From Gonapodya prolifera JEL478 (lineage: Eukaryota; Monoblepharomycota; Monoblepharidomycetes; Monoblepharidales; Gonapodyaceae), in NCBI GenBank assembly GCA_001574975.1, contig KQ965791.1, positions 219,283 through 280,638 of the forward strand: 61,356 nucleotides of DNA. The letters are read 5' to 3'. This document shows positions 10,620 to 55,002 of the stretch, piece by piece; within the stretch, counting starts at the first letter, position 1; each line of letters begins with the position of its first letter. The position numbers were made by a program, and so were the translations under genes. The notes beneath the pieces are model-generated. The model had not been told where the DNA came from. It did no database searches and worked only from the letters and a program-made list of their open reading frames with translations.

Positions 10620-11419
10620 TGGTAAGGTTGAGCGGGTATGCGGTGGAATGCGCGGTGCCGGGCGAGCAGGGAATTGTGCGACTGAACAAAAAGGATGGAG
10701 CGGGACGGTCAATGGAGAGTTCGAGACTTCCTGTTCTCTTCTTGAATGGAGCAGTGATTGAGGGCTGCGCCTTACTCCATTTTTCGGCCGTCCGACTCCT
10801 TCGTCGTCCACCAATCAATCCGACGACCGATTCCCATCCCCTTCCCTTCCTCCACACTTTCACAACGCCAGTCCCCCGCTACCGGAAGTCACACCTCGCC
10901 TCCGCAGATGCTCACCTTATTTGTCGCTCCCGTATTCCTCCCTTCGTCCTCTGAGCACCGAAACCTCTGACTGGCCACAGACAAGGAGCTTGCGTGTGAC
11001 CTCCATGGCTGTGCCACGTTCAGCGATGCCACCTTGCAACAGACATTTCTGTATTCTTCTGTGAACTATACATGCTGCAATATTGTAGTACTTGCCTGTG
11101 CATCTTTTCATTCATTCTGTTTCTTGCTGACAATCCCTTTCGACTGAAAAGATAGAAATGTCTTGAATCACATAGCAGTCTAGGTACTGCGTCGTACTTC
11201 AATATTATCGCTGGGACTGATTTCGCATATGAGAGGTGAGTTGGCCGCAGCCCAGTCACAAACTGAAAATCCATATCAGCTTGCATCGCCTGCAAGCCGT
11301 CAGCAACGGCTCGCAAACAATCCCAGCAGCGGAATGCCTCACGGTAGCACAGGCTCCGCCATCGCTTCCTCCTCCGTCACGCTCCACCGCTACCCTCTAC
11401 GTGGTCAGAGTGCGCCCAA
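10620..11419. other. Spacer between the ankyrin gene and an F-box relic
   Basis: This holds the upstream region of the ankyrin/coiled-coil gene. Short open frames occur on both strands but none shows a domain or splice pattern. The frame at 11229-11459 on + may be the original 5' end of the F-box relic that follows, since it supplies ATG codons that the F-box frame lacks. Confidence 0.35.
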
Positions 11420-12150
11420 ACCACTCCATCTGGATCGCTGGACCACCGTAGCGGCCTGAAGGACCTTCCACTTGAGGTTCTACACCGCATCATCCGTTTT
11501 CTCCCCCCGAAAACCTGGTTGAACGTTCTGCCACTTACGAGAGAAGAGTCGGCGCTGGAAAAGAGTCCGAAGGATGGGATTCGCTTTCTACATTTTTTCC
11601 ATTCGACCCGTATTCGTGAAGATGGAAAATGGACGCATGCTTGGGAATCATGTGAGGTTCGAGTCTCTATTAACTTGGACAATGGTGCATGTTGGCAGCT
11701 TGTGGACTACCATATGTATGTTGGTGCCAGTGATGATTGTGAATGAAAGTTGTGAATCTCCGTCCTCGAGGTCCCGCACTGCGTCATCGCAATCTATTCA
11801 GGGCTGAGGCAGTCAGACTGGTCTATTTTGATGAAAGTTATATGTTACGCAACACTACGGGGGTACTTTGAGATTTGACGCTTTGACTTTGCGAGTTGGT
11901 TGTTTGACCCGCTCCAAATCAACGCATAACTCAGCCCCACTGACCCATGACGCAGACAGGTTCTACTCGGAAGGGACAGTCTTCCGGCCAATGCTCAGTG
12001 GTTCCATGTCTTCTTCCTTTGGCACAACCAGTGTACGCTCCTTGTTCATATGTCGTTGTACCCAGCCTTGGCATTTTCTCCTTTGATGATGTCAGTGATC
12101 GCAGTCGACTTCATCTTTGGTCAAATGACGTCTTCACCTATTCAACATGA
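11420..12150 (+). pseudogene. F-box gene relic
   Basis: The frame containing TTG 11519 reads LKDLPLEVLHRIIRFLPPKT, a good F-box, followed by WLNVLPLTREESALEKSPK and further sequence to a stop at 11746. It resembles the intact F-box gene at 19860-21359 (LPTEILRQIFRLLPPRT). No ATG lies in this frame between the upstream stop near 11345 and the F-box; ATG codons exist only in the frame used by 11229-11459, so the start is frame-shifted away. Further pieces to about 12150 in other frames may be the decayed remainder. I treat it as a relic rather than a gene. Confidence 0.5.
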
Positions 12151-14496: not shown

Positions 14497-15960
14497 TTAC
14501 AGGTCCAAGACAGGATCTCTGGTCCCCAATAACATTCCTCCCTGTGGAAAAGATCTACTCCAATTCCGCGGAATCCCCAGGTAGTCTTGCACCATCCACT
14601 GGAGTCCCAGAAGGTCTCCTCTTCCCTTCCAGTACTCCAGCAAATTTGTCCTCTGTGGTGTCCTGGTCTCCATCAAGTACTGGTTCAGTTCCCCTTGCAT
14701 ATCCTCATCCTCATCAAAAGTACTGATTGCTCTTGCATCCTCCATGGCTGAAGTCCAATGCCCAAGGCCACCACCCATTGCAACACTTGCATACCTGTTG
14801 TCAAATGTTGCGTGGATGGCGGCCTCTGCCTTGTCCATGTACTTTGTTTCCCATCCTTGTTCCCGCATCCACAATAGCTTGTATGCTGGGTGCAGCACTA
14901 TTGTAAAATTAGTCAAGGTGTCACCAATGTAAAACCGCAATGGAGTAACTCACCTTATGCAGTTCAATAGAGTCTCATGCTATCTGTCTTTGCATAGTAC
15001 TTCCAAAGCACTTCTATGATGGATTCCCAAACCATCAAAAGGACCAGCAGCAAGCCAACGTCTGTGTCCTCAAGCTTGTCCATTACAATGTTGAAGAGGG
15101 GGACAACCGTCACAAGGGTTGGGTACACTGTACTCTCCACCAAGCAGAGTGCTTGTGCTAATGGCTGTATGAAATAGACAGGAGAGGGTTAGGTGAGACC
15201 AGATTGCATTTAATATTTGCACCCACCTCAAGGAGTGTCAAACCCTCTCCAGATAGTTCCAGTCCTTGTCCATCAGTTTCCACTCCCATAGTCCCACATC
15301 TGAAGCAAAGAGCCTCTCCACCACTGCTCTGTCCTGCATGTCACAGGTAATGGCATTGAAATCCAATTTCCATTGGGTTCCAACTGGGGCCACCAACTTG
15401 TGGGCCTTGGATGGTTCCATGAACTGCATTGCGTACATTTTGCGGAGTCTTGGAGAGCATAGAACATTGTAAATGAGCTCATAGAGCTCCAGAACACTGA
15501 GTTGCCAAAGATGCAGCCACATTAAAAAAGACAAAACAGCCACTCACCTTCTTTACAGGTCCATTGTTGCCTCCAACAACATCCTCATCATCAACATTGG
15601 GAAGTTGCAACTTCTTGAGTCCTGCCTGGACAGCCAAGTGGAGGATATGGGCAAAACAGTGAACGTGCAAGTTGACCTTGCTGAAGTCTGCTGCCATCAT
15701 GCCAGAGTTTGTGACTGCTCACATCATGGTGTCATTGTTGCTTGCATTGTCCATTGTGAATGAGATGACCTGTTTTCATGTTTGGAGAATTTGTGAAAGT
15801 GCCAGCACCTGACCAACAAAAATGTAGTGCAACTCACCTTTTTCATAACCCCAGTATTTCCAAGTGCTTCTAGCACAATCCTAGCAATATTTTCTCCTGT
15901 ATGGGGGCCCTTCACCTGTACAAAAGTCCAATAGGACCTTGGTCATGCACCAGTCTGTCC
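14497..15960 (-). mobile_element. hAT-family transposase relic 1
   Basis: Read from right to left on the minus strand, pieces follow the order of a hAT transposase: KGPHTGENIARIVLEAL (about 15910), MDNASNNDTMM (about 15750), VNLHVHCFAHILHLAVQAGL (about 15690-15620, the RNase H-like region), TQWKLDFNAITCDMQDRAV (about 15390-15330), and near the 5' side of the window the hAT dimerisation block, LLEYWKGRGDLLGLQWMVQD then YLGIPRNWSRSF (14640-14560). Several pieces end in GTGAGT-like donors, so the source gene had introns. The BED zinc finger and terminal inverted repeats are not recognised. hAT transposases cut and paste DNA; this copy is fragmentary and surely inactive. Confidence 0.75.
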
Positions 15961-16149: not shown

Positions 16150-16740
16150 CCTGAATCACATGAGTCCTGCATCCACACTGACAATACTCTTGAGGGCCCA
16201 GGTCCAGTCAATTTGATGTGTTTGTGTTGAAGAAAAGGAGGCTGTGGTCAGGCTCAACTGCTCATTAAACAACCACCCCAAAACCAAACTCACCTCTTTC
16301 AATTTTAATGCCCTTTCCACCATTGCATATGTTGAATTCCATTGTATCTGCATGTCCCAAATTAATTCCAGGCAAGGAGTCCCCTTAACATCACAGGATC
16401 CTGCAAGGTGTTGGTGGTGCTGCAGAGTGGCTTGGATTGCATTCACAAGACCTCGCAACTGCAAAATGTATTTAGTAGAGCGTACTTGCAATAAAACGCA
16501 GTCAAATCACTTACCTTTGCAATCGCACCAACCCCTGCCATATCCACTCCATCCAAGTCCCCATTGGCTGATTCCCATGTAGACCCACCACCAAATGTTT
16601 TGATTGTTGCTTGTGCTGCATTATTGATGGCGTGGGCAATGCATATGATGTGGTTCTCAATTGCAAACTTGGCAGGTCCCCTACAGTTCCAGCACTAGAC
16701 CCATCAGTGCTAATCCCCACACCTGACAATGGGAGTAAGT
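16150..16740 (-). mobile_element. hAT-family transposase relic 2
   Basis: Two exon-like pieces on the minus strand, separated by an intron with donor GTAAGT, read ENHIICIAHAINNAAQATIK followed by TFGGGSTWESANGDLDGVDM, then VNAIQATLQHHQHLAG and LIWDMQIQWNSTYAMVERAL ending at a GTGAGT donor. CIAHAINNAAQ and W-NSTY-M-ERAL are diagnostic of the catalytic core of hAT transposases. This core repeats parts already present in relic 1, so it is a second, diverged copy inserted or duplicated in tandem in the same orientation. Neither N-terminal BED domain nor dimerisation block is visible for this copy. Confidence 0.7.
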
Positions 16741-18635: not shown

Positions 18636-19319
18636 ATGTCCTCCGACAAAGTCCTCGCCCTCGCCGAAAAATTCGTTGGCGCCATCGCGAAAGGGGACGT
18701 TCCGGCCGTGAGGGAGTGCTATGCCCCGGATGCAAAGATTTGGTATGTACGTTTCCGTTTCGTCGCTCACCTTGTCCCCCTCACCGTTGTTTGACAAAAA
18801 TGAAAGGCACAACACCGACCTCATATTCCAATCCGTCGACGAAAACATCGTCACCCTCCTTGGGATGATGAAGACGACGTCCTCGCGCGCATACACAGAC
18901 GTCGTCGTGTCCACGTTCCAGAGGAAAGACGGCACAAGAGGGTTCATTCAGGAGCACGTGTTGGTGGCCAAGTCGGTGAGTTTTGCAGAGATGTCGGGTC
19001 GTGGGGCGGTTGGGGCCTGGGGGATGTGGCGACGATCTTCCCCGTTCGGTTTTAGTTGAGATTGCAATCTGAATCCGACTCCCGCAGCTCTCCGGCCCCA
19101 CCCTCCGCCTCCCCGCCTGCGTTATCTGCACCGTAAACGCGGATGCGACCCGCATCACCCAACTCCGCGAGGTGAGTTCAATATGCCCAGATGCATTCAA
19201 CCCGAAACTTTACCCTCATCTGTGCTGCGCAATAGTATATGGACCAAGTCACGATTGATAAATATACCGCGCTGGTCGTGGCGACGCGTAAGGAGTTGAA
19301 GAAGGCGGGGAAGCTGTGA
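18636..19319 (+). CDS. SnoaL-like / NTF2-fold protein, copy 1 (147 aa)
   Basis: Four exons, 18636-18742, 18807-18975, 19088-19171 and 19236-19319, all GT-AG with closing phases. The N terminus (LALAEKFVGAIAKGDVPAVR, then ECYAPDAKIWHNTD) is typical of the small cone-shaped SnoaL-like/DUF4440 members of the NTF2 superfamily, where the pocket binds small hydrophobic molecules; some members are cyclases or isomerases, others have no known reaction. The C terminus is basic (RKELKKAGKL). The first codon is the only ATG before the conserved helix. A paralogue with the same intron positions lies at 27721. The active-site chemistry cannot be assigned from sequence. Confidence 0.85.
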
Positions 19320-19859: not shown

Positions 19860-21359
19860 TCATATTTGACCAAGGTCCAGCCAATCTCCAGAGCGCAAAT
19901 ACGTTGATGTCGCAAGCTTACAACCATGTGCTTTCGCCGCTTTAATAATTCCGTCCGCGACTTTCGGCACTGCCAGTCCAAAAGGATCAGAATAGTCCGG
20001 AAACTTCGCATGGTCCCATTCGGCAAGGTTGTAAGCGTTATTCCAAAAGTGCAGGTGGATCTGGAAAGCACAAGGTATGTGAAGGGATGCCGATACCTTG
20101 AAGAGCTCCGAGGTAAAGTCGATCAGAGCCATCACAAAATGGAGATCTCTGAAATGGTACGCCATGTCTGCAGATATACCTCGAGCTCGTGCCCGTCGAG
20201 GTGCTATGGCAAGCTGTAGCATAAGTAATTCCAGGTGCGGGCAAGTATGGTAAAGACGTGAAATAGTGCTTCGAAAAGAAGACCCCTTTTCCGACATTGC
20301 GTCCAGATCACTAGATGCAAGAAACGTCGAAAGGATCCTCAGCATCCACATAGGCTGAACCGGTCGGGATGATTTTGGATTCACGTTTTGAACCATGGGC
20401 GAAAAGTCCAGCAACGGTATTCTGCCCAGTGCTGAAATATTGGGAAACACTTCTCCGAGCACGAGAAGGTTGCTGTCGTGCTTTCCTAAATCCCGAATCG
20501 GGACGGGTCCATTTGCAGCGATCCAATCGTTTTTGGTTTCCCAGACGTGTGTTACACGTAAACGCCTTTCCAATGAGGTCGATTGGATGATTGAATTGGT
20601 GATTGTGTCAGTTATTGTGAATTCGTCTGCGACAAGGAAGCTTGCGTTTGGGAACTTGAGCAAGAGGAATGACATTGTCCGTGCGACATAGTCGTCATGG
20701 CCTGAAACGACCGACTCAAGATGAAGCTCGACCACTGACGGAAATATTGTCTGTAGAGTGCTTGCACTTCCGTCAAAAATATAGAACTCCTCCAGAAACA
20801 CAAGGCCCGGTAGTTTTACCCGTCGCGGCTCGCACTGGGTCATCAAGGCGGCTGCAAATTTTGCCTGTCGTTGGACCATCCATTCAAATCCATTGCCGCT
20901 CCCGCCGACTACCAAGGCGTCGTGCACGAATACGACGGGGGTGGTGGACATGATTCGAAAACCCTCACATATCCGCTCCCGACACAGCAGGTCCAGCCCA
21001 GAAGGCGAAATGTCCGCCGCTGGACGTCCGTCCCATGTCACGACAGCTCTCGCAGCCGTCCATGTCACGTGTCCGTTCCGTTCGATCGACTCGAATCGAC
21101 GCTCCAACGTGAACCGTTCCGGCTCCCCCTCCTCCAAATCAAGCGCGCTGTCAAACTCATCCACTAATTCGATCCCCTCTTCGTTGGATATGATGAGATT
21201 GTCCCATTTGACGCCGACTTCCCCGTTGGGGCATCCGGGGAGGGCGGATCGCGCGACCTCGCGCATCGTCCGAGAAAGAAGGGGGATTTTCCCGTAGAAA
21301 GTCCGAGGAGGGAGGAGACGAAAGATTTGACGGAGGATTTCGGTTGGCAGGTCGTCCAT
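19860..21359 (-). CDS. F-box protein, intact (499 aa)
   Basis: A single uninterrupted exon. The frame is open further upstream, but the first in-frame ATG is at 21359 and starts right at the F-box: MDDLPTEILRQIFRLLPPRT followed by KIPLLSRTMREVARSALPG. F-box proteins bind Skp1 and present substrates to SCF ubiquitin ligases. The rest has alternating Leu-rich helices and strands (TIFPSVVELHLESVV, FPNISALGRIPLLDF, CPHLELLMLQLAIA) that suggest degenerate leucine-rich repeats as substrate-binding surface. It belongs to the same loose family as the relic at 11420. It is one of only two F-box loci in the window without a frame break. Confidence 0.85.
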   Translation of the reverse strand: MDDLPTEILRQIFRLLPPRTFYGKIPLLSRTMREVARSALPGCPNGEVGVKWDNLIISNEEGIELVDEFDSALDLEEGEPERFTLERRFESIERNGHVTWTAARAVVTWDGRPAADISPSGLDLLCRERICEGFRIMSTTPVVFVHDALVVGGSGNGFEWMVQRQAKFAAALMTQCEPRRVKLPGLVFLEEFYIFDGSASTLQTIFPSVVELHLESVVSGHDDYVARTMSFLLLKFPNASFLVADEFTITDTITNSIIQSTSLERRLRVTHVWETKNDWIAANGPVPIRDLGKHDSNLLVLGEVFPNISALGRIPLLDFSPMVQNVNPKSSRPVQPMWMLRILSTFLASSDLDAMSEKGSSFRSTISRLYHTCPHLELLMLQLAIAPRRARARGISADMAYHFRDLHFVMALIDFTSELFKVSASLHIPCAFQIHLHFWNNAYNLAEWDHAKFPDYSDPFGLAVPKVADGIIKAAKAHGCKLATSTYLRSGDWLDLGQI

Positions 21360-21609
21360 CGTCCGTCGATAACTGAGTGTCGTAGTGAATGGACGGTGCT
21401 GCGGACATGGTCTTTGTGGCGAGGGGGGCAAGAGCTGACGGCGTTGGAAAACTGCCCCAATGGAGGAGAGAAAAGTATATAGCCACAAGGAAGTAGAAGA
21501 TGGTTGGGGTGTTAGAAATTTAAAGAGACCCCCATGTGCAATTCATTCATGCGAAGTACCGGCAACATAAATGAACTCTCCAAGGACCGTCTCTAACTTA
21601 ACACCACGA

Positions 21610-22985
21610 TATTTTGATTACTCCTAAAAAAATTCCCCTAACCATACTTCCTCTTCACCGCGACCAACCTTCCAAAATTTTCCTCACAATACATCAGCCA
21701 CCACACTCCGTCTTCGGTTCAACCTATTCTGACGTCCCACCGCGCCCCCAATCTCATTCACGTACGCCGCGCGCCCTGTATGGCCGTAGAAGCGCGTCAG
21801 TCTTTGTTGCCCAGGTCAGGGCGATGGCGAATTCGTCGTCGTCCGCGACGCCGGAGAGGATGAGGACCTAGAACCCCGTTCAGAGGCGCCATGGGAACGT
21901 GATTGCAATGGTGGTCAAGTCCCCGATCGCACCGCCGATGGGGTGCAGTGCAGCCTTTATGAGCGGAGCGTTGGTGAATCGGGTGACGAGGATGTCTGTG
22001 ATGGCTGGTGACAGGGTTTCGATCCACAACACCTGGAGAGTGCTCGCGCGTGTTGGTAGATTTGGAGGCCACCGATGCACAAGTGGATTTTAACGGTGCG
22101 TAGTGTGAACTGGAGGGTGGGTGGGCGGGGTGCGGAGCGGTGGTGGGGTGACAGGGGAGAACGATGAGGTTTGGAGGAAGAGGAAAGAAGGATAGGATGG
22201 AAAGGACACCGTACCTGTATAATGACGGCGAAGTTGGCGCCGGCGCCTTGGATTGCCCACAAAAGGCCTGAGTTCTGCGTTTCGCTCGCAATCACTGCAA
22301 GAGCGAGACGACGAAACCAAATGAGTTGTAGGCCGGGCCCCGGCTACGAGACGCGAGAGATGAGCGTAAAACGTACCTATATCGCCATTGGCCAAGACAG
22401 CTTCCACTTCAAGCAGGTTATCCACCGTCATCCCCTTGTGCCTCGACAGGTACCCATAGCCCCCTCCCACAGTGTACCCTCCCACGCCCGTATCCGCGTT
22501 CGTCCCCGAGGGCACTGCGACGCCGTACACGGAACACGCCCCTGTCGAGGTCACCGAGCCTGGCGCCTCCTTGAACGTGGGCGACGCTGTTGGAGGGGTC
22601 CACTACGACGGCGGAGAGGAGAGTGGATCTAGCATGACACGGTGGTCTTCGGTGCTGTGGATGGTGTGCCGCCCGCCGGCGATGGTGAGGTCACTAGAGA
22701 GGTTGGTGTTTTGCGCACATGAGTTGGATGGATGTGGGTAACAGCAAACAGTACACTCACATGGAGTGTTTTCCCGCCCACTTGATGGTCTCGGACACGT
22801 CTTTGGCGTCCTTCGGAGCAACCGTCGCGGCAGGGTAGGTTTGGATTTGATAGTTCCACCTGTTTCTGGTTTGTTATGGCGATGCGAGTTATTAAACTCA
22901 AACCTTTCGTCTCTGCAAAGGTGAATCCGCGTCACTCTCGTTGGCTTGCGAAGGTCTTCGCCAGCTTGTATCAGTGACCCACCCG
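21610..22985 (-). pseudogene. BBE-type FAD-linked oxidoreductase pseudogene
   Basis: On the minus strand this interval follows the intact gene at 25522-27467 exon by exon: WNYQIQTYPAATVAPKDAKD, DLTIAGGRHTIHST, NADTGVGGYTVGGGYGYLSR, LHPIGGAIGDL and finally NQNIVV. Lesions visible by comparison: the donor of the second intron is GAGAGT instead of GTGAGT (about 22952); a deletion just after HRVMLD shifts the frame (about 22612); about 370 bases of coding sequence between IGGLQIY and CCGSKP are missing (about 22025); and the C-terminal exon is shifted and stopped. It therefore lacks part of the substrate domain and cannot make enzyme. It is inverted relative to the intact gene and about 2.5 kb away. 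Confidence 0.85.
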
Positions 22986-25521
22986 ATCATCAGAGCACCA
23001 CACACGAGCGTTTTTGCTCCCGAGCAGTCGAGTGTAGATGTTTCAAAATTACCTTCACACGACGCAATTCAAGAGTGTAGCCGCTTGATATTTTGAGTCT
23101 ACGCTGGTACTTGGATGCCACGTCACCCTTTAAGGCGCAAGGTACAAACCATAGATACCCTATTGCGAAAACAATTTTACTTTAACTCTGTCCGACATCT
23201 GTGCGTGCACTGGATGGTGACGGCAGCTTCTCCCGAGGCATGGTTTCATTCTCACAGTCTGTTTAACATCTTCATCGCGCGACCTTCTGGCCGGCTGCCG
23301 AAGCTCCAATTAAGACAGCATGTTCTGGCTCCTGAGCGGATCAAGCACAAATGCTGCTGTGTACGTTCTGGCGGAGCAGGTAAGAGGTATCCTTGATTGG
23401 CACCCATTCATCCGCGTCGTTCGCGCTCCTTGATCACACCATTGCTTCCGATGCTCAGCCCTATCTCCGCGTAATTTGAGGCGCGCTTTACTGTTCGGGC
23501 GCGCGGAAATGAGTTTCACGCGATCCGACTTGTTTGATCCTTGCAGTGCGATGTTGACAATTGCCTGTTTAGCTGTAGGGCGGGCCTTTACAGAGATTTC
23601 GTCATTTCTACCGTTTCCTTTTTACTTTAACTCAAAAGCACGCATTTTTTGTTGCATGAACATATATTTTAGCTCCACTCCGGATCAAGCAGTCAATCTA
23701 CACCCTCCGGCCCTGAGCAGTTTGAGCACAAGCTTTACAAATTCGTCGGTGCTGCACAGCATTTCTCCACGACTACGGTAGCTGACATGGTGCTCTGGCT
23801 CTCCATTTTGATCTTGGTTCCCGCGCACCACGGTTGCTACCATCCTTAATCCAGGTGAAGCGCTGCACAGGACACAGTCCTCAATGTCACATATTACCAA
23901 ACCATTCAGTTGGATGTTGGCCGTGCGGCAGGAGTAAAAGACCTGAAGTCGAACATTTTGACATCATAGCAAGACAATTGACGAGTCAGATTATGCATTT
24001 GGTACACGTCCCCTTGAAAGGATTTTCTTTCTCGTGTTTTTTTTTTTTTTTTTTGTTTGTTTGTTTGTTTGCGTCGAAAAAGCTTAGAACCCCGTCACCT
24101 TTGTGCTCCTTGTTCAGCTGCCAATGAGACAAGAGAATAGAAGCAGCAATCACTGCTAGATACTCAGGAATGTTAGCCAAGTGAGCTGATTCCGGCTTTC
24201 CAATTTCTGTTTGTGAGCTTTCTCTACCTCAAAAAGCTGTGAGTTTTCTTGCGTTAGCGCATCCTGAGAGCGTCAGCAACAGATATGCGGCGACATTTTC
24301 GCCAGGCACATTGGAGCGGACATTGTATGAAATTTGGCTCGACTGCTGGTCAAGGTGCTTTATACTCCAAGAATAGCCACTTTGATCGGTGCGAGTATTC
24401 AATCCAATAGTCTGAGCACCCCCTTCGTCGAGTATTTCGGTGAGGCTTTTGATAGCCATCATTGCTCAAATATTTAGATTTGTGCTCTGCGATGCTCGTG
24501 GCTCGGAATTGAGGGTGATCGAAACAATTCTGTGTGGGACATGGGTTGGGGGCATAAAAATCTGCAAAAGACCTCCACGTCTGACGTCAGCCAGCTAGTG
24601 CAACCTCAGAGAAGCGCCGAGCCACCGAGCAAGCTGTTAATGCTTTTTCAAACTGCTCAGGCGACTTAACTTTGTGTTGAATGTCCCTTGATCAGCATTT
24701 GAGCCAAAATATACGCAAGCTGCGTTCCTTGACTTCATGACCGACATCTGGCGCCAGTGTTCTGTATCCCAAAGGTGTGCTCACCCATAAAAAGTGAGAG
24801 TGCTTGAGATACTGTCAGCATATGAGTGGAAATGCTCAACTTCGAGAGCCGCTACTAAGTAGTCTGGCAACAGCTGACATCGGCAAACTCTCACGACACA
24901 GCCTTCCAAGCTCAAATTAGTCGGAGCTCGCTCACCACATTTAGACATGTCACGAAATCGGGTCTGAAATCACACGGAAGGGAGAGGTGTTGTTGAGGAC
25001 ATGAAGCGGTGAAGTAGCACAAATAAGACGAGGATGACGCGGTAAATGTACGAAATGTACGAGTGACTTGTATTTATAACTGGTGCAACCCGGAAATATA
25101 ATCATCTAACTTACTTCGCGAGAGCGCTAGTTTGCAATATTCATGCAAGCTCTGCGACTGTTAAGATGATCGGGCGGACCACAAGTGCAAGGTGGCAAAA
25201 AGCAGCATGCGGTCTCGCTAAAAATGAAGTACGTTGAAAGATGCCGGTGGTTTGGTGGTTGAGAATGGGCTTGTAAAATGGAGGAGAGTAGTTGACGCAA
25301 TCTAAAGCTCGTAATCTCGATCATAATCCGGTGTGAGATTAACGTTTGATGACATGGCAGTGCAGTTGGGGCTTAGACCGCTTTGGTGTATATTACGGTA
25401 GAAGTAGCGGTGGAGAATAGGGTTGTTCCGCCTCCGCTGCCTGGATAAAAGACGAAGGCAAACTCCGCGTTTCGTCAAACTGTCATTCCGTTCATTGGCA
25501 CTCTCGCTACGAAACAAAAGC
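22986..25521. other. Gene-poor 2.5 kb between the inverted oxidoreductase copies
   Basis: No convincing gene. A small frame on minus, 24462-24229, gives 77 residues (MMAIKSLTEILDEGGAQTIG at the start, AAYLLLTLSGCANARKL near the end) and could be a small protein or an exon. Another on + starts at ATG 23115. Neither has a recognised domain. The stretch next to 25521 should hold the promoter of the oxidase gene. A short T/GTTT repeat is listed separately. Confidence 0.35.
24037..24071. repeat. T tract followed by GTTT microsatellite
   Basis: About 18 consecutive T residues followed by four GTTT units. A simple-sequence repeat, likely length-variable. Confidence 0.9.
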
Positions 25522-27467
25522 ATGGCGCCGTCAGGAGATTACAACGCAAAATCCACTGAAACGCAAGGCAAGTCGCTTGCTGTGGTCCGTCGGTCACCTG
25601 GCGAACTCAACGGCAACTCTCTGCCCAGCAGACGTCCTTCTCAAGCTGCTGACCAGCGATGCACCGAGTTTTGTCCCACTCAGCGTCTTTGACGATCTGA
25701 GAGCGGCCATCAAGGGACGCGTTTACTTCAAACACGACGAAGGGTACGAAGACCTTCGCAAACCGACGTGAGTATCGCGCATCCACGTCCAAAGAGTCAA
25801 AAAATGTTTTCACCAACGCCCATCGCCACCGCAATCGGGAAACAGGTGGAACTTCCAAATCCAAACGTACCCAGGCGCGATTGTTGTTCCGAAGGACGCC
25901 AAAGACGTGTCTGAGACAATCAAGTGGGCGGGAAAACACTCCATGTGAGTGTACTGCTTGCTGTTACCCACATCCATCCAACTCATGTTCGCAAAACACC
26001 AACATCTCCAGTGACCTCACCATCGCCGGCGGGCGGCACACCATCCACAGCACCAAAGACCACCGCGTCACGCTAGACCTCACTCTGCTCTCCGCCGTCG
26101 TAGTGGACCCCTCCAACAGCATCGCCCACGTTCAAGGAGGTGCAAGGCTCGGGGAACTCGACAGGGCGTGTTCCGTGTACGGCGTCGCAGTGCCCTCGGG
26201 GACGAACGCGGATACGGGCGTGGGAGGGTACACTGTGGGAGGGGGCTATGGGTACCTGTCGAGGCAGAAGGGCATGACGGTGGATAATCTGCTCGAAGTG
26301 GAAGCTGTCTTGGCCAGTGGCGAAATCGGTGCGTTGCATCTCTCGTGTCTTTTGGCTGCCGATGACAACTCTTATGGTTTCGACATCCTGCACTGCAGTG
26401 ATCGCGAACCGCACCCAAAACTCGGACCTCTTCTGGGCAATCCAAGGCGCCGGAGCCAACTTCGCCGTCATTACCAGGGTACGTTCACCTTTCTTTGGCT
26501 CCAAACCATGTCTGCCCCTGAAACCCCCCCTCTCCCCCACCCTCCACCATCCAGTTCACATTCCGGACCTTCAAAATCCACTCCTGCGTCGGTGGCCTCC
26601 AGATCTACCCACCCACGCACGCTCGCGCCCTCCTCGAGGTCCTCCAACATACCATGTCCCCCGGCCCACGCCCGCTCTCCACGTCCGTCCTCCTCACATT
26701 CGCTCCGCCACCGGGTGTCGCACCCGAGGAAGCCCGCAAGCCGGCTGCGGTTTTGATGCCGGTGTATGTCGGGCTCGGCGAAGAGGGGGATGCGGGTGAG
26801 CAGGAACGAAAGCAGGCGAGAGCAGTGTTGGAGGAACAAATGGAGGCTGTGCCGGAGGCGGTCATGACGCAGGTCGGTGATATGGACTACTGGAACGGTC
26901 TGCAGAACCTTGCGGAAGTCGCGCAGGCTGCCGGACGGTGGTACGAGAAGGTGAGCTCGGTTGTACTCCTGCATTAGTGTGGCAGGGCGACTCTTCATCG
27001 ATGCTTTCCGTCCCTTCACCCCCCGACTCCAGGCGTTGTGGATCGAAACCCTCTCCTCCGCCGTCATGGACATCCTCGTCTCCCAATTTACCAAAGCCCC
27101 GCTGAAAGGCTGCACGATCGCTCTGCACCCCATCGGTGGTGCGATCGGGGACTTGGCGCCCACATCCACTGCGTTCCCATGGCGTCTCAAAACGGGGTTT
27201 TGGGTCCTCATCCTCTCCCGCGTGGCTGACGACGCCGAGTTCGCCATCGCGCGCACATGGGCGACGGAGACCGACGCACTTCTACGACCGTACAGGGCTG
27301 CAGCGTACGTCAATGAAATTGGGGGCGCGGTCGGAAGCCAGGACGGCGCGAAGGCGAGTGTGGTGGGCGAGGTCTACTATGGGGAGAATTTTGGGCGGCT
27401 GGTGCAGGTGAAGAGGAAGTATGATGAGGGGAATTTCTTTCGGAACAATCATAATATTGTGGTGTAG
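25522..27467 (+). CDS. FAD-linked oxidoreductase, berberine-bridge-enzyme type (502 aa)
   Basis: Seven exons: 25522-25567, 25632-25767, 25846-25944, 26012-26328, 26399-26478, 26555-26950 and 27033-27467. All phases close; intron 1 is of the GC-AG type. The FAD-binding (PCMH) domain is seen in AGGRHTIHST (residues 99-108, where His103 is the likely covalent flavin attachment), NADTGVGGYTVGGGYGYLSR and FWAIQGAGANFAVIT. The C-terminal BBE motif is complete: YYGENFGRLVQVKRKYDEGN followed by FFRNNHNIVV. The second, cysteine attachment site of bicovalent members is absent (Thr-Gly at that place), so the flavin is probably singly linked. Such enzymes oxidise sugars, alcohols or secondary metabolites with oxygen, making peroxide. 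No signal peptide is seen. It is the intact partner of the pseudogene at 21610. Confidence 0.9.
25568..25631 (+). other. GC-AG intron
   Basis: Exon 1 ends AACGCAAG and the intron begins GCAAGT, the classic strong context for GC donors, ending CCCAGCAG. Removing these 64 bases joins a Gln codon to GACGTCCTT in frame (ETQ to DVLLKLL). Reading through gives a stop at 25690-25692. Confidence 0.75.
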
Positions 27468-27720
27468 TTTACACTTTGCATGCTTAGAGGGTGCATACAT
27501 ATTGAAGCTTTAATTTCTAAGAAGTGTCGACAATGCGCTAATGGCGAGTACATCATGAGAATAGCTAGGTATGGACGGAAATATCCACCAACACCTTCAT
27601 GGATTTTCCGGATTGTGGCGCAGCGGTCCTTGGACGGTATGTGCTCTGTGAAAACTGCAGGCAAACGACAGTGCCGGAGGGGTGTCTCTCCAGTCTACCG
27701 AGCGCCCATCCACCCAATTG

Positions 27721-28471
27721 ATGTCCTCTGACCAAATCCTCGCCCTTTCTGAAAGATTCTTCAGTGTCATCGCGGAAGGGGATGTCGAGGCAGCGAGAGA
27801 CTTCAACGCTCCTGATGCAAAGATTTGGTACGTTCCGCTAGCAGCTTACTATTACGTTCCAGTCCTCACCAGCTCTCTACTACTCACACTGCCGGACAAA
27901 ATCAAAGTCACAATACTGACCTCATATTTCAAACCGTTGACGAAAACATCGTCACCCTCCTTGCCTTGGCCAAAACGACATCCTCCCGCTCATGCACGGA
28001 CGTTGTGGTCTCCACGTTCCAAAGGAAAGACGGCACAAAAGGATTCATTCAAGAGTATGTGTTGGTGGCCAAGTCAGTGAGTTGCTTTTGCTCAGACGTC
28101 GTGTCACGGGGCGGTTTGGGGATGTGGCGACGATCTTCCCAATTCAGGGATAGTTGAGATTGCAGTTTGATTCTACTCCTACAGCTTTCCGGCCCCACTC
28201 TCCGCCTCCCCGTCTGTGTTATCTGTACCGTTAACTCGAATGCAACCCGGATCACCCAACTCCGCGAGGTGAGTTGACTTTAGGCATTCAGCCCGAATCT
28301 TTACTTCACCAGTACCCCCCGTCACATGGACCGAGTCGCGATCGGCAAGTATACCTCACTGGTCGTGGCGTCGCGCAAGGAGTTGAAGAAGTCGGGAAAG
28401 CTGTAAATAGTGTACTAATTTGGTGGGCGGCGATACGATTAATAGCTTGGACATTTACGTCCCTGGAGTGA
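27721..28471 (+). CDS. SnoaL-like / NTF2-fold protein, copy 2, with altered C terminus (172 aa)
   Basis: Exons 27721-27827, 27908-28076, 28185-28268 and 28313-28471, with the same three intron positions as copy 1. The N-terminal part is conserved (MSSDQILALSERFFSVIAEG, APDAKI-equivalent APDAKIC in which the Trp of copy 1 becomes Cys at the splice junction, then HNTDLIFQTVDENIVTLL). In the last exon the copy 1 sequence (MDQV-IDKYT-LVVA-RKELKK) is still encoded, but one base out of phase with the acceptor at 28312, so the predicted product ends in an unrelated 53-residue tail. Either this is a frame-damaged copy or another acceptor is used. The gene starts 253 bases after the oxidase and is followed 233 bases later by the nitroreductase. 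Confidence 0.7.
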
Positions 28472-28704
28472 GACACGGAAGTGTTTGGATATGGCGTGGG
28501 CAGTTGACACCTTCTCGCTGACCTAATCCAGACAACTCATAATTACCAAGCGATCTGCGACTCCTGCGACTCACTTTCTTTTGCGTGACAAAATCTTTGC
28601 ACGACCGCTGAAGTGCCGGATAAACCCCTTTCGGCGAAGCGGAAAGGTAAGAGGTTTCCGAAATCACGAAAAATTCTCTTTTCCTTTCTTCAATTTCTTG
28701 ATCG

Positions 28705-29566
28705 ATGGCCTCTGCATCCGCCTCTGGCTCCAACTCCTCCCCATCCTACGACGACGTCGTTCTCGGTCGTCGGTCCATCCGAGGATTTCTCCGTAAACCG
28801 GTACCCCGCGAAGTCGTACAGGAAGTGCTGTCACTCGCTCTCCGGGCGCCATCATCACTAAATACACAGCCGTGGAACTTCTACGTCGTTTCCGGTGCCC
28901 CGCTTGATGCCATTCGAGCTGAAAACACCAGGAGGAACCTCGCAGGTGTCCCGCCCAGCAGGGAGCCCCGAAGCCACGGAGAGTATACTGGCGTACACCG
29001 GGACAGACAAGTGGAGATTGCGAAGCAGCTGTTCGCGGCGATGGACATTCCCAGGAACGATAAAGCCAAGCGAACGGATTGGGTTCTCCGAGGATTCCGA
29101 CAGTTTGACGCCCCTGTTTCGGTGAGTCCGTATGCTATGTTCTGCATCCAAATATTTCAGAAGGGCTCAGCAATGCTCCTCCAACCTGGCGACCTCGCGC
29201 CATCGCTTTTGGGAACCTTAATGGCGCCACCAGATTGTCGTCACATACGACCGCACGATTCTCGGCGGCGACATCGGCCCATTCGACTGCGGCGCCGTCG
29301 TGAACGCACTCGTGAACGCCGCGTGGTCGCGCGGGCTCGGTTGCGTAATTAACTCGCAGGGGATCATGCAGACTCCTGTCGTCCGCGAGTTCGCAAAGAT
29401 CCCTCAAGACCAGGTCGTCATGATTTGTGTCGCCATGGGATGGCCGGACGAAACCTTCCCGGCGAATGCGGTCGTGTCGAAGCGGAAGGGGGTGGATCAG
29501 TGTGTGACGTTTATTGGGTTTGATGATGACGAGGCGGGGAAAGGCGCGGGGAAGAGTAAATTATAA
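28705..29566 (+). CDS. Nitroreductase-family FMN enzyme (249 aa)
   Basis: Two exons, 28705-29121 and 29234-29566, joined in phase across a 112-base intron. Family marks are the N-terminal VVLGRRSIRGFLRKPVP, where the Arg-Arg-Ser-x-Arg residues contact the FMN phosphate, LRAPSSLNTQPWNFYVVSG, and the C-terminal VVMICVAMGWPDETFPAN. These proteins are FMN-dependent NAD(P)H reductases acting on nitroaromatics, quinones or enones, usually as dimers. Length is normal for the family; no targeting signal is clear, so cytosolic is likely. Same strand and immediately downstream of the oxidase and the SnoaL-like gene, which suggests a shared pathway, although fungi do not usually form operons. Confidence 0.88.
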
Positions 29567-29893
29567 ACTATAGATTCTACATTATTATTTGAGTCTAGGA
29601 TGTAAAGAGGAGAATGGTGTTCGTGGTGTTCTCCTGTCTGCTAGTGCCAGGAATTTTGTGCGCAATTCCCACTCAGTCAAACCGTCGACGATCGCATACG
29701 GATGGCGATGGAGTGCTGATTCAGCCCAAAGGTGATACTTCCAATACTCAGGGCTCGGGAGGACCCCACTGTCACGTTCTGGTCTACCCTCACCGACCTC
29801 GTGAACATCAATCACTTGCTTCGACGGCGTCAAAGTCCACTGGTGTCTCGTACATAACCCTAGAGAACTCAGAACACGCTCTTGACTCCAGAG
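29567..29893. other. Intergenic spacer
   Basis: Separates the nitroreductase from the ankyrin gene on the same strand. No feature recognised. Confidence 0.4.
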
Positions 29894-32800
29894 ATGACGG
29901 CTGTTGCGAATGAAGCGAAGCAGACAGGCATCGCGGTCTCAACACCTTGGAACGCGACAACGAAGGCCCCCCGGCATGGAGGCGGTGTCGACGAATACCG
30001 AGACCAGGGTCTGTATGAAGAAGGCGATATAGATGATCGAACACTGCTACCACCTCTTCCAGGAGTCGCTGCAGGATCCCGCAAAGCGACACCCCCACTC
30101 TCTGCATTTCCAACACCCTCGTTTCACTTCCGGGATCTCTCGCTGTCGTCGACGGACTCAGACTCGCTTGAGGCTGCGACGCTTCCGTTACGTAGTGCTG
30201 AACCGCCTGATTTGGATTACGAAGATGCAGACTTGGAGGACCTGGCGAACCCTGGGAACCTCGCTCGCGCTCTCTTCTCCGCAGTCGACGCGGGAGACCC
30301 GGACGTATTGTCTTCGCTGCTCTCTCGAGCGCCTTCCCATACTCTGGTCCTTCAGGTCCTTCTGACAACAACGTACGCAAATTTACCTCAACCACTCCCC
30401 GATTCCCCTTCGACCGCGTCTCCTCGCTACCCGCACGATCCTTCCGACACTCTCGCTTCAACACTGCTGGGACCATCAGTATCCCATCTCAACGCACTTC
30501 ACATTGCGTGCATGCAAGGTGAAGAGGACACAGCCATCGTGCTCCTCCGATACGTTCGCCGGGCGTCTCAAGAACTTCGATCTCGGAAAGTACTCGGTGA
30601 ATTTGTTGGCCGTGTTTGGGGAGACGGAAACTCCACACTTCATCTGGCGTCGTACTACGGCATGTCTCGATTGGTGGAGGAGTTGATTGAGTGTGGAGCG
30701 AACATGGGGAAGAAGAATGGACAGGGATATAGGGCGGTGGACTGCGCTGCTGATGGAGAGACGAGAATGGCGTTCATGACTCGCGAAGTGGCGGAGGGTG
30801 TTCTTGAGAGTGAGTACGCGATGTCCCACGCGATATTCAATGAACCTTAACTTTGACCAACTGCACGCAACTCTTTTATCAGATCCCCCAAGTATTCCGC
30901 CCCCTCTACCGTCCATTTCGGACATAGCACCAGATGCAACCTTGCCGACCCCTCCACAACGACACAGTCCTGTAGGGACCGCCTTACCCATCTCCCCCCA
31001 GGATACGTCGACCGAGCGAAAGGTGTCGTCGCCAACGTCTGCCTCGAAGTCACTAACGGACGGAGCACAAGATAATGAAGCGCTTGCAGGGGGTTCCATG
31101 ATATCAACGAAAACTGCAAATGAAAGCGCAAACGAAAGTGGAGCCCCGAGAGCTCATACATCCGGCAGAGTTCGTTTTCCACCAATCCCTTTACTTTTAC
31201 ATCTCTGCGGACAGCCGGACAGTTGTGACCCGCCGTGCACTGCCGAATCCGTCTGCCCTACTATCTCCTCAATCCTTTCATCATCCGTATTCCCTTCTCC
31301 CTCTGTGGCAACTTCTTCCCGAACGCCGGGGAAATCATTCACACCACTCCACCTTGCCTGCACGTCTGGAAACCTGCCCGCCCTCCACGCTCTCCTCGCT
31401 GCAGGGCCAGACTTGAACGCGCGGGACGTCGAAGGATGGACGGCCTTGCATTGCGGTGCAGCAGAGGGATGGGCGGAAATCGTTCGCGAGGTGGCAAGCT
31501 GGGGGAGGGATGGGAGCTTGGAGGAAGAGGCGAGAGCGGATCTGTGGGCACGGACATGGGAGGGCGAAACTATTGGGGATATCGCGGAAGGTTCAGCAGG
31601 GGATGTGTGGCGAGGTGAGTAATTGTGCTGCTCGAGCTCGACGTTTCAAACGTAATCCTATTTCATTTGAAGAACTTGTGGCTGAGTACGACCCCTCGGA
31701 CCCTTACAGCAATCCGGTTGAATCTTTAGATGAGGCGGAACGGAGGTCTGATGAAGCCAGCTCGCCGTATGGTACTTCTCCTTCCACGGCCGAATCCAGC
31801 TCCGCGTCACCACGAGAACCTTCGAGCAAGGAAGCTAGAGATGGTGACGTCGATAACCCTCGTCGACAACCTCTCCCAAGCAACGCTGTTCCGCGGAGAT
31901 CAGCGATGCGGAAAAGCAAAAAAGTAGGACACCAAATCGCGGAAACAAGGGGAGATGAAAAGGCGGAACTGTCCGCTTCGACACACTCTACAAGCCCGAC
32001 CACCCCAGCTCAAGTCGTGGCTCCGCCCCAAGAATCCGGCGTTACACATTCCACAGGAACTGCCACCGCGACCATCAGTGTGGAATTGGAGTTACTGGCT
32101 CCTCGACCATCGACCCCGACAAAGAGCGAGACAGCTCTTTCCAGTACTGCCAAAATGTCTCACGTTACGCCAGCGGAAACACCTCGTGTCCCTGTAGCTT
32201 CTGCACCCGCCTTAACGCCAATTCCAACTCTTCGTATTCCTGATACGTTGTTAGTGAGAACCATTTCTCCTGTTGTCGACGCAAAGGGACCGTCTGGTAA
32301 TGAAGAAATCACCAGCCCTGTCGGGAAAGTTTCTCATACTCGCGATCGTACGCATGTTAACGAGAAGCGAAGCGATCTTTCTTCCGGTCCTCGAATGACT
32401 TCAGAAGGGTCAGATGCGAACGCGGACGTTACTGCCACCGTGGACAAGGGTAAGGTGGGGGAACACCCAACAGAGAAGCCGACTCCTCCACCACGTGCAA
32501 TCATCACGTCGGAGCCGAAAGCGACACCGGCGTCTACCTCACCACGAACTGTCACTGCACCTGTTCTACCCGCAACTCCGTCATCTCTCCATGTCACCTC
32601 TCCTAGGCAAATTCCTCCCTCCGCAAGCACTCAAGGAGCAAGCGGCAGCGGAAAGCCTCCTTCACCATCTCAAATTTCAAAGATACCCCGCGCCAGACAG
32701 TCGCCGCCATCTCCACGACGGGAGAGTGCCGTGACTGACGGATCAACGACGCCGTCTTCGACGACCGCGCAAGGGAAAGTGGGCTCTCCAGCCACAACAC

Positions 32801-35715: not shown

Positions 35716-35841
35716 AGCAAATACTCCGTGCAGTCGATGTACAACTATGCAGATTGGGCTACTTACGCCTCCCAGCGCCATTGCACCCCGTTCGGTGCAT
35801 GAGAAACAGTGTCACGAATCACGCACATCCACATCCTTCTT

Positions 35842-36747
35842 CTACACCCTTTCCACATTCCAAAAGTCCTCCCTGCATACCGCTTTGTGCTTCTTCCAAT
35901 GCGCTTTCTGACAAGCTGTGTCGGAGTACATTGCCATGTGGCAGCAAACGCATATCTTCTTTGGGAATAGGTTCATGCAGCCCACAGCTGCGCAAACAGA
36001 CTCGACGTCAACTTTTCTGAACACCTTTTGATTTTCTGCGCTGAAAGAAGTGTCGCAAGGGTATTGAGAAAGTTCCACAGAAACTGTAAGTTCGAATCCA
36101 AATTGGGATTCAAAAGTCTGGGCTGTGACGAAATAATGTATGATCGCAGAAAAGCCGTCATTGTACTCCCAGCGTGAGAGGTCGGGAATGCTCTCCCAAG
36201 CTAACCGTAGCGCAGCACAGAATAATTCGTCATTCTTGAAAACCGTTGCAAGATAGCGGGCAGAAGAAGCACTTATGTCAGGTGACATTAGCTTTGATAG
36301 AAGGAGAAACCAATGGCAAAGTTTGATTTCAATGTTGTCCTGCTCCTCTTGAGAAGCATTTTCATTGATTGTCATAAATAAAAGCAATATTTCGCAAGAT
36401 GTGGACGCAACAAATGAGGGAAGAACCTCGAAGGATGGTTACAGTATTATCTGTTAGGAGGCTTGAGACAAAAGGGCATAATTTGCGAGATGGCGAAAAT
36501 TGCTGATTGTAGATTCTTCTAGCGTAGTGGGAAGATGAAGATGAAGAACCAGATTCCTCCCAAAGTAGCTTGCTAGAGACGCAAGTAGACCTTCCATGAG
36601 ACAGTGGTGCCTCTTGGAGATAATAAGCGCCCAAAGGCGGCAGCAACACTTGAGGGAGCTGAAGCATAATAAGGAAAGTGTTTTCAACTCGGTAACGGAG
36701 TTTTTCACTCTAGGAAGAACGGCGGGGTAGTTTCTAAATGAAACCAA
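35842..36747 (-). pseudogene. MYND zinc-finger family gene, frame-broken, with one zinc ligand lost
   Basis: The 3' frame (36387-35842) ends in a MYND finger: VCAAVGCMNLFPKKICVCCH, MAMYSDTACQKAHWKKHK, AVCREDF. In sister copies the fifth zinc-binding Cys lies in MYCDAACQ; here it is MYSDTACQ, so one ligand is missing. Upstream (about 36747-36470) another frame gives SYFGRNLVLHLHLPTTLEES, matching SSFGRNLVVYCTTTPS of the copy at 38869. The two frames are not joined by a plausible intron. MYND domains bind proline-rich peptides in other proteins. No good ATG heads the upstream part. Most likely a decaying paralogue. Confidence 0.6.
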
Positions 36748-38868: not shown

Positions 38869-40083
38869 ATGCACTCTGCTCAGGACGAGAGAGAGCAATG
38901 TGGTCAGCGGACGTCGGCGCAGGGCAAGTTGCGGAAAGGAGACGAGTTCCTCGCTCGGATAGAGAGCAGGGACGATAGCTACCGGAAAACAATCGGGGAG
39001 CTGAACCGTTCACTGTCGGAGACAACGGCCGTTGCCGGTGACCCTGAACGAGTTGAAGAAGCTCTCCTTCCCGTAATGAAGTTCTTTGATATTGCGAGGT
39101 CAAATGGTCCTTCCAACACGTTCTCTACTCGCGATACCGCTGTCGCTCGGAAAGTTCACTCATGTCTCTTGACGAGCTCCTTTGGAAGGAACCTGGTTGT
39201 TTACTGCACAACTACTCCCTCTACTCCACCACATAAACCCATTGGTTTCCTGGATTTGGCAGAGATTGCATTTACATCTCGAGCTTGCCGACAGATGATA
39301 CAGGAGTCCACTGTGGGGATCTTCCAAAATTCATTGAAACCCTCACTTCCTTTCTATTGATCGCATGTTTGAAGAAGATCACCAGAGACGATCATCCCCA
39401 GCAGGAGGAGGAGGACGGCAATCCTTACAGTGTATACCGGCCGCAATTTTGGTTCATGTTTTTAGCAAAGCTCATTGCACCGGCTGCCATGAGTACTTTG
39501 ACCGCAGCCTATCTCTCAAATGTCACAAAGAAGGACGACACATCATGTAGTGTGATAGAGATTTTTCCAGACATTGTCCTGGAGCTCCAAATGGAGAAAC
39601 GTCACGATGCCGGTCTCTTTGATACAGTCGCCCGATATTACATTGTCGCACAGCAGTTTCGATCCCAGTTTGGACTCGAAGTTCCTCTTTCAAAGCCTCG
39701 GATTCCCTTTGACGTGCCGTCGGAACACATCGCGCGAGAAAATGCATCACACTACCGGGACTTTCGCAAAACTTCCAAAGAGCAACGATCTTGAGTCCAT
39801 ATGCGCCGCCAGTGGCTGGATGAACCTCTTGCCAAAGAAAAAATGTGTACGGTGCCACATGGCAATGTACTGTGACGCAGCGTGCCAGAAAGCTCGTTGG
39901 AAGCGGCACAAAGCGGTGTGCAGGGAGGATTTTGGGAATGCGGAAGGAGTGGAGATGAGACACATAGGAATACAGTATGACGTTGGTGACTTAGTGACGA
40001 TTGAAGAGGTCAGGTGCGGTGTGCCTGCAGTTGTAGATTTTGATGTTGATAGAACTTGTTGCTTGGTCTATGTAAAATCATGA
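38869..40083 (+). pseudogene. MYND zinc-finger family gene with two frame breaks
   Basis: ATG 38869 opens a frame with an amphipathic helix (DSYRKTIGELNRSLSETTAV) and SSFGRNLVVYCTTTPS. Near 39300 the frame changes to one reading DLPKFIETLTSFLLIACLKK through to the helical middle part (RYYIVAQQFRSQFGLEVPL). Near 39770 it changes again to KSNDLESICAASGWMNLLPK then KKCVRCHMAMYCDAACQKAR and WKRHKAVCREDFGN, a complete MYND finger with all eight ligands, ending at 40083 after another 40 residues. Neither change sits at a usable splice pair. Apart from these two breaks it is the best preserved copy and shows what the family looked like: a coiled-coil N terminus, a helical middle and a C-terminal MYND. 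Confidence 0.65.
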
Positions 40084-40240: not shown

Positions 40241-40855
40241 GGTTAGCTGTGAGTTTATTTTTGTGCGGAGTATCGACCACATCAGGGGTCTTTAATTTGT
40301 ACCCTCGCACTTCAGATGTACGGGACATTGCACAGCATGGCCCGCACCTGAATGGGAGATACGTTATTTTTGCGCAGTTGCGGGTGTATTGTGTGATTAT
40401 TGGAGTTTGGAGCTGTGGGTGACTAATCTGACTTTATTCTGATCATATGTTTGCATAAAAAATAAGTACACATGTTTTTCATCGGAGGTAAATGTAACTG
40501 AAGCAAGGTATTGTGCGAGTGCACAATTAATGGCTCTCAGTAACATTCAGCAGCATTCCAAGGTGTGAAGTACTGGGCGAGGCTATGGACGTGACCAAGA
40601 ATAGGCCCGGTCACTGTGTGTGTATGTCAACCGTCTAGGTCACCGTGTGGTGCACACTGGCGGTGCGACCAGAACCCCACGGGGGTTCCGCCCGCCGCCC
40701 ATATGACCTGGGTGACGATGCTAGCTAGCGTGTACGAGTAGCGTAGTAAGAGCCAAAAGCACTCGATGGTATTCCAGACTTCTGCCTTCCGCTGTGACAC
40801 GAAGGAGAAACGATTGTTTGCCACTCGTCCCAGTTTCAATCTCGACCACGCTATT
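40241..40855. other. Spacer, no gene seen
   Basis: Non-coding by inspection. It leads into the F-box locus, and its last 90 bases are open in the F-box frame but lack an ATG. Confidence 0.4.
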
Positions 40856-46399: not shown

Positions 46400-46860
46400 T
46401 GCTGTCATTCTTTCACCGGGTGGTCCGTCTGGCGGGACCCCTTCCACATTCCAAAAGTCCTCCCGGCATAGGGGCGTGTGCCGCTTCCAGTGCCCCTTCT
46501 AGCAAACAGTATCACAGTACATGGCCAGCTGGCACCGAGCACATGTCTTTTTCGGCACCAAATTGGTGCACACAATCGCCGCGCAAACATATTCCGTGTC
46601 CGTCCTTTTGAGCATTTTCCAATACAAATGAGTGGCTTTCTGAGTTTCCCCCTCAACGGCGTTGGGACGACCAGTGAGAGGCAATTTTAAATCAAACTGA
46701 GTGTGAAGATAGATCTCTCGCGTGGCATAAAGTGTCAGTGCAGTTACGATTTGTGTGCCAACCCCGGGAACTTGATTATTTTTGGCAGTAAAAACATTGG
46801 AGAGAGCCGTCGCAGCAAGTTCCGTGTTTGTATTCACGGTGGCCGCGTAGTAAGTGGCTG
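46400..46860 (-). pseudogene. MYND zinc-finger relic with a stop inside the finger
   Basis: Reads TNTELAATALSNVFTAKNNQ, then YVCAAIVCTNLVPKKTCARC, QLAMYCDTVC, then TAG where sister copies have CAG (Gln), and continues in frame as KGHWKRHTPLCREDFWNVEG. The nonsense codon removes the last two zinc ligands. It aligns with the copies at 35842 and 38869. Confidence 0.7.
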
Positions 46861-50472: not shown

Positions 50473-50640
50473 CGCTGTGTTGGCGGAGTGCTGTGGGCTG
50501 CTTGGCTGAGGGCGATGCCGCGGTCTCCGTTGTATTGCTTTTATTTCCCGGCTACAATGGCAATACAAACCGACAGTGTGATTCAAAGGTGAACTGAAGG
50601 CACCCCCACGCGCCCGCCATCCCCATGTGGACACCGCTCA

Positions 50641-54856: not shown

Positions 54857-55002
54857 ACGACAAGCATTTTACATCTAGATTAGCAATAATAAGCTGTTTT
54901 GAAGACTCGGTAGCTTTCCCAACTATCATTACCGATCATGACCGTCCAGGCTAAATAGTTCTTTCCCAGTCCCAGCATTAACCCCCACGCCCCCCCGCCT
55001 CG

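Follow-up and report, generated by a model that had tools for sequence, protein, structure and literature searches.

EncM, which acts in enterocin biosynthesis (4xlo, 6fyg), and 6-hydroxy-D-nicotine oxidase (2bvf) are flavoenzymes that combine an FAD_binding_4 with a BBE domain and carry flavin adenine dinucleotide (FAD) on one histidine, reported for EncM as His78 (PMC7662398). NfnB-type nitroreductases (2wzv) and their kin (3gr3, 7dp0) belong to the PF00881 family, and bacteria also encode proteins annotated "nuclear transport factor 2 (NTF2) family" that have an IWHN motif and an EYxD end. Of transferred genes in Chytridiomycota, most are described as bacterial in origin, with Alpha- and Gammaproteobacteria among the donors, and as tending to have several introns (PMC11291939). 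Relatives of all three protein groups stand next to one another in a 61,356-nucleotide stretch of Gonapodya prolifera JEL478 DNA (contig KQ965791.1, positions 219,283 to 280,638; below, "the window"): a BBE-like FAD oxidase, a SnoaL-like gene of the NTF2 fold, and a flavin mononucleotide (FMN) nitroreductase.

The first-pass annotation had taken these genes for an intact trio, part of a small metabolic module. The arrangement itself holds: all three lie on the plus strand at about 25.5-29.57 kb, separated by only 253 bp (27468-27720) and 233 bp (28472-28704, counted from an out-of-frame gene end). The intactness does not, because the SnoaL-like copy in the middle, at 27.7 kb (SnoaL2), is degenerate, and the good copy is the one at 18.6 kb (SnoaL1). 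On balance we favour, with moderate confidence, a former oxidase-SnoaL pair that has decayed reciprocally and stands beside an unrelated, bacterial-type nitroreductase, rather than a three-part system. The locus is thus a case of ordinary genome evolution and not a new enzyme system, its most telling parts being the probable joint duplication and conversion tract described below. GT-AG introns and matches to F-box, ankyrin, and MYND-finger families mark the window as eukaryotic sequence; comparisons beyond it covered bacteria, plasmids, and solved structures.

Decay in the oxidase and SnoaL-like copies

Both second copies announced by the first-pass annotation, a dead inverted oxidase and a further SnoaL-like gene, are present (Table 1). 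The dead oxidase matches the working gene by blastn in two blocks (22046-22960 and 21601-22038), at 81.8% and 77.9% identity. It has lost its first exon and a further 401 bp comprising the greater part both of exon 6 and of intron 6; the remaining exons carry small insertions and deletions, several of them frame-breaking, and three of the aligned codons are in-frame stops. The two SnoaL-like genes are 75.4% identical over 743 aligned positions, and here the damage falls on the opposite side: SnoaL1 has four exons, GT-AG introns, and an open frame, whereas SnoaL2, with intron positions in common with SnoaL1, has its last exon out of frame when the standard acceptor at 28312 is used.

The residues point the same way. 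We compared both copies with the closest 11 of 19 bacterial SnoaL loci fetched (17 of the 19 entered the alignment). SnoaL1 keeps W36 and H86, found in 11 of the 11 relatives, and Y65, found in 10; in SnoaL2 the corresponding residues are C (W36), Y (H86), and C (Y65), and where SnoaL2 is instead the copy closer to the bacterial residue, that residue is shared by at most seven of the 11. The SnoaL label itself comes from a plasmid protein bearing the annotation "nuclear transport factor 2 family," to which SnoaL1 is 39% identical, and from bacterial relatives without annotation, to which its identity reaches 48%, since the match of SnoaL1 to PF12680 (SnoaL_2), at 22.8 bits, falls below the cutoff of 27, SnoaL2 matches no SnoaL family, and nothing among solved structures was better than E 0.3 for SnoaL1. 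The IWHN motif and the EYxD end are present in SnoaL1. It differs from the bacterial proteins in its three introns and longer C-terminal tail, and SnoaL2 differs from them in lacking the conserved residues.

The oxidase and SnoaL-like pairs are equally diverged. By the Nei-Gojobori method, synonymous divergence (dS) is 0.62 +- 0.12 for the SnoaL pair (120 codons, exons 1-3) and 0.67 +- 0.10 for the oxidase pair (188 codons, exons 5-7), which agrees with one joint duplication of the two genes. The oxidase and the SnoaL-like gene were thus probably duplicated together and then lost reciprocally, as far as their sequences can tell. A two-gene unit, consisting of the BBE-like oxidase and the SnoaL/NTF2-fold protein, would have been duplicated once, after which one copy would have lost its oxidase and the other its SnoaL gene; each gene would then survive as a single good copy, the two lying about 6 kb apart and separated by the F-box gene and the dead oxidase.

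Several observations weigh against this account. An alternative SnoaL2 acceptor at 28349 would restore the frame, though with nine residues missing. W36 sits on the junction of exons 1 and 2, and whether it counts as lost is a matter of the splice model; H86 and Y65 are inside exon 2. Among the 25 positions of exons 1-3 at which the copies differ, 13 favour SnoaL1, seven SnoaL2, and five neither. We consider the loss of nearly invariant residues together with the frame to be a stronger sign than this weak tally, and SnoaL2, the gene inside the trio, is the decaying copy, the working one being SnoaL1. The layout is a second difficulty: with SnoaL1 on the plus strand, the dead oxidase on the minus strand, and an F-box gene between them, a single tandem or inverted duplication does not suffice and some further rearrangement is needed, so that the joint duplication is probable but not proven. 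Lastly, the ratio of nonsynonymous to synonymous divergence is low in the SnoaL pair (0.17) and, outside the tract described next, in the oxidase pair (0.21), which implies that selection long constrained both lost copies and that their decay is recent or partial.

A further feature of the oxidase copies is a tract of near identity. Identity between the copies reaches 90-96% in exon 3, intron 3, and exon 4, whereas it is 65-74% in introns 2, 4, and 5 and 79-81% in exon 5, the retained beginning of exon 6, and exon 7. The difference is found in intron (63/67 identical positions in intron 3 vs 155/224 in introns 2, 4, and 5; Fisher p 1e-5) as well as in coding sequence (388/415 in exons 3-4 vs 450/568 in the later exons; Fisher p 2e-10), and dS inside the tract is 0.16 +- 0.04, against 0.67 outside. 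A later exchange of sequence between the inverted oxidase copies by gene conversion is the simplest reading of the tract, intron included, and a probable one.

Table 1. Features of the locus, numbered from the first letter of the window
Feature	Position	Strand	Exons or extent	Basis or remark
BBE-like FAD oxidase, working copy	25522..27467	+	well defined: 25846-25944, 26012-26328, 26399-26478, 26555-26950, 27033-27467; an earlier exon ends at 25767	PF01565, PF08031, EncM 4xlo, 6-hydroxy-D-nicotine oxidase 2bvf; gene models
Oxidase, dead copy	21601..22960	-		blastn, alignments, lesion counts
Near-identical tract of the oxidase copies	25846..26328	+	about 0.5 kb; inverted partner about 22370-22890	probable gene conversion
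SnoaL1, intact NTF2-fold/SnoaL-like gene, 147 residues	18636..19319	+	18636-18742, 18807-18975, 19088-19171, 19236-19319	
SnoaL2, degenerate copy	27721..28471	+	27721-27827, 27908-28076, 28185-28268; last from 28313	last exon out of frame relative to SnoaL1
FMN nitroreductase, 249 residues	28705..29566	+	28705-29121, 29234-29566	PF00881
F-box gene, unrelated	19860..21359	-		PF00646, 20.5 bits, equal to its cutoff, E 4e-4; between SnoaL1 and dead oxidase

Predicted chemistry of the oxidase and its SnoaL-like partner

The working oxidase has the two-domain architecture of EncM and 6-hydroxy-D-nicotine oxidase, matching PF01565 (FAD_binding_4; E 1.3e-27, 96.6 bits against a cutoff of 26.4) and PF08031 (BBE; E 3.3e-13, 49.8 bits against a cutoff of 20.6). 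Its start exon is uncertain: among the introns enumerated, no convincing GT-AG joins the nearest ATG (25522), and the protein model uses a GC-AG intron picked by eye from outside that set. EncM is the closest solved structure (E about 1e-51; 5e-51 for 4xlo), aligned with residues 39-501; 6-hydroxy-D-nicotine oxidase (2bvf, E 2e-34) matches over the whole length, aligned with residues 42-501, and 9p1o (E 9e-37), an oxidoreductase that binds FAD, matches chiefly in the FAD domain. At E values of 1e-40 or lower, relatives occur in 77 of 296 and in 24 of 398 bacterial genomes, and the best identity to bacteria is 36% among the listed matches that span most of the length.

The histidine for covalent FAD is kept, with GGRH of the oxidase aligned to GGGH of EncM. 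The loop PSGTNADTGVGG, which we take to be the position of the second-link cysteine in many BBE enzymes, contains no cysteine, and the second, cysteinyl FAD link, typical of the family but not universal, is thus probably missing. From the kept histidine and the cysteine-free loop together, we predict one covalent FAD link, as in EncM and 6-hydroxy-D-nicotine oxidase; BBE-like members with a single link are on record (PMC11375781).

Sharing the architecture of EncM need not mean sharing its chemistry. EncM is the best match among solved structures, and both the FAD histidine and T139 are kept in the oxidase, yet it is highly improbable that the enzyme acts as EncM does, that is, as an oxygenase working through a flavin-N5-oxide. 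Changing L144, L116, H138, or L117 near the suspected dioxygen pocket of EncM is reported to impede catalysis, while T139V results in oxidase activity (PMC7662398). At EncM positions L116, L117, H138, T139, and L144, the fungal enzyme has R, L, D, T, and Y, so that three of the five differ, namely L116, H138, and L144 beside the pocket. As of 2024, EncM was moreover called the sole known BBE-like enzyme to use the N5-oxide state of the cofactor (PMC11375781). With the dioxygen-site residues mostly changed, we do not class the oxidase as an EncM-like N5-oxide oxygenase, and the substitutions lead us to predict an ordinary H2O2-making, hydride-transfer oxidase instead: an alcohol, amine, or phenolic substrate would give up a hydride to its histidine-linked FAD, and the electrons would go on to O2. 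The NTF2-fold protein, judged by its family, may isomerise, cyclise, or hydrate a small hydrophobic compound, possibly the product of the oxidase.

The nitroreductase and its bacterial relatives

The third gene encodes a full-length member of its family (PF00881; E 1.6e-26, 93.9 bits against a cutoff of 23.5, residues 20-209), as NfnB-type enzymes are, and its closest solved structures are 3gr3, 7dp0-7dp2, and NfnB itself (2wzv). Like other family members, it would use FMN and reduced nicotinamide adenine dinucleotide (phosphate) to reduce nitroaromatics, quinones, or similar xenobiotics, and would do so alone. It is only 36% identical to a plasmid protein annotated NfnB. Its N-terminus is 12 residues longer than those of the three aligned plasmid proteins, although a few of the genome matches do reach residue 1.

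No second nitroreductase copy was found in the window. At least 576 stretches in bacterial genomes encode relatives, of which the best 80 are 66-79% identical and, by title, come mainly from alphaproteobacteria, with some gamma- and betaproteobacteria and a few others; the best listed match is 79% over 223 residues. Plasmids hold close relatives in three of 303 matching records (60-66% identity), the next 12 listed being at 34-37%. Because there is no second copy in the window, and because 79% is far from the best bacterial identities of SnoaL1 and the oxidase, we place the nitroreductase outside the duplication history. The view that the module was "duplicated once and partly lost" hence survives for the oxidase and SnoaL-like genes, with their equal dS and decay in opposite copies, and fails for the nitroreductase.

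In a tree of 70 rows, which left out 19 rows with a stop in the translated slice (taken as matches running past the gene end), the nitroreductase falls in a mostly alphaproteobacterial clade of close relatives, apart from distant paralogues, and has no well-supported sister. The gene also carries an intron of 112 nucleotides (GTGAGT...CAG) that is not a multiple of three in length and splits the conserved DAPVS/IVVT. The likeliest origin, on this comparison, is a transfer from alphaproteobacteria or near kin, separate from the history of the other two genes, with the intron gained afterwards. Two properties of the tree speak against leaning on it heavily: the gene is its sole eukaryotic row, and the outgroups sit on branches so long that they cannot be trusted. 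It may also be that fungi have had the nitroreductase for a long time, or that relatives of this fungus keep all three genes together.

That the gene is simply bacterial contamination of the assembly hardly seems credible. Its bacterial identity, up to 79%, is the observation that might suggest this, but the intron must be removed to keep the frame, the third-position guanine-plus-cytosine content (0.66) falls within the 0.55-0.78 of the four other genes measured, and the gene directly adjoins intron-bearing genes upstream. Alphaproteobacterial affinity and intron gain are, in addition, what is described for bacterial genes acquired by early-diverging fungi (PMC11291939). The stem "nitro" is absent from the main text of that report, as are "nitroreductase," "oxidase," and "SnoaL" from the main text of a study of transfers into a chytrid (PMC5005798), and among the related papers listed, no title or abstract opening names a nitroreductase transfer to fungi.

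Bacterial neighbourhoods and competing readings

If the three genes had been a bacterial unit, their relatives might be expected side by side, and the first-pass annotation had proposed conserved neighbours as a check. In the bacterial loci examined, we met neither the trio nor a conserved neighbour of the nitroreductase. Eighty-five loci were fetched, 83 for the nitroreductase and two for SnoaL, of which 48 are longer than 20 kb and the others shorter. An oxidase relative at E 0.01 occurs in none of the 85, SnoaL relatives are present only in the two loci fetched for them and in 0/83 of the nitroreductase loci, and no neighbouring family is common to more than six loci (83 with a match, 82 examined, one being without an open reading frame). 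The wider neighbourhoods, 11 of 19 SnoaL loci and 20 of 40 oxidase loci (one of 3.7 kb, the rest of about 10.5-17.5 kb), gave three weak partner matches: one to the oxidase near SnoaL relatives (27% identity, E 1e-5) and two to the nitroreductase family near oxidase relatives (E 3e-6 and 8e-6, both near 36% across roughly 60-70 residues). The 11 SnoaL neighbourhoods had no nitroreductase match and the 20 oxidase neighbourhoods no SnoaL relative. SnoaL relatives are in any case sparse: at E 0.001 they occur in four of 16 genomes holding a nitroreductase relative, in eight of 385 genomes from the class of one of these, Caulobacter ginsengisoli, and in nine of 296 from the phylum of another, Nocardioides insulae.

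Entry of all three genes together as one bacterial operon is accordingly a very unlikely source, and we rejected it. Bacterial relatives do exist for each of the three, but never side by side in the loci examined; their best identities are far apart (79%, 48%, and 36%), and the intron numbers differ as well, with one in the nitroreductase, three in SnoaL1, and at least five in the oxidase. The idea of a single small module for metabolism or detoxification, made up of the oxidase, the SnoaL-like protein, and the nitroreductase as its newest member, draws on the shared strand and short gaps as well as on the probable joint duplication of the first two genes. In Fusarium verticillioides, xenobiotics are also reported to induce SnoaL-like, FAD-binding, BBE-like, and nitroreductase genes, which lie at separate loci (PMC10512309). 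We nevertheless consider this module unlikely, given that the trio contains a degenerate SnoaL gene, that the nitroreductase is bacterial-looking and has no second copy in the window, and that the bacterial loci examined show no grouping of exactly these three families that would point to a single pathway. Three neighbours share a strand one time in four under random orientation, by simple reasoning, so the arrangement alone is weak evidence. Rather improbable, too, is the stronger proposal in which the oxidase and SnoaL-like gene are a true two-step unit, selection having kept exactly one working copy of each through duplication and reciprocal loss, and the bacterial nitroreductase has been recruited beside the surviving oxidase as the third step of an undescribed fungal pathway. 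No backbone synthase was seen among the 30 open reading frames of the window scanned besides the focus genes (137 frames were listed).

Under the reading that we prefer, a reciprocally decayed oxidase-SnoaL pair beside an unrelated nitroreductase, three processes would meet in one place: a probable joint duplication with reciprocal decay; a conversion between two inverted copies, one of them dead by now; and the arrival of a bacterial-type gene that gained an intron. The locus also advises caution, since the apparent trio includes a failing gene. If the oxidase-SnoaL pair proves to be conserved in relatives, it merits enzymology.

The remainder of the window yielded no Rfam family at gathering scores and no transfer RNA. 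Besides the F-box gene of Table 1, F-box matches were found in four further frames (11348-11743, 40742-41623, 48787-50637, and 54982-55530), two of them under Pfam cutoffs, and the family is perhaps expanded here. Two frames contain ankyrin repeats, 5719-6621 (+) and 29864-30847 (+), the second just downstream of the nitroreductase. Frames at 14500-14949 (-) and 16159-16506 (-), to which Pfam gave no match, resemble fragments of a hAT-type transposase, and 2758-3081 (-) has a weak match to glycoside hydrolase family 5 (cellulase) that is under the cutoff (E 9e-4). Three stretches, 35838-36003, 39793-39958, and 46437-46589, are related at 73-80% identity and represent a dispersed paralogue family or repeat; a frame overlapping the first has a MYND-finger match that narrowly misses the Pfam cutoff. 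Finally, 50850-51252 and 56013-56416 form an old direct duplicate at 66% identity.

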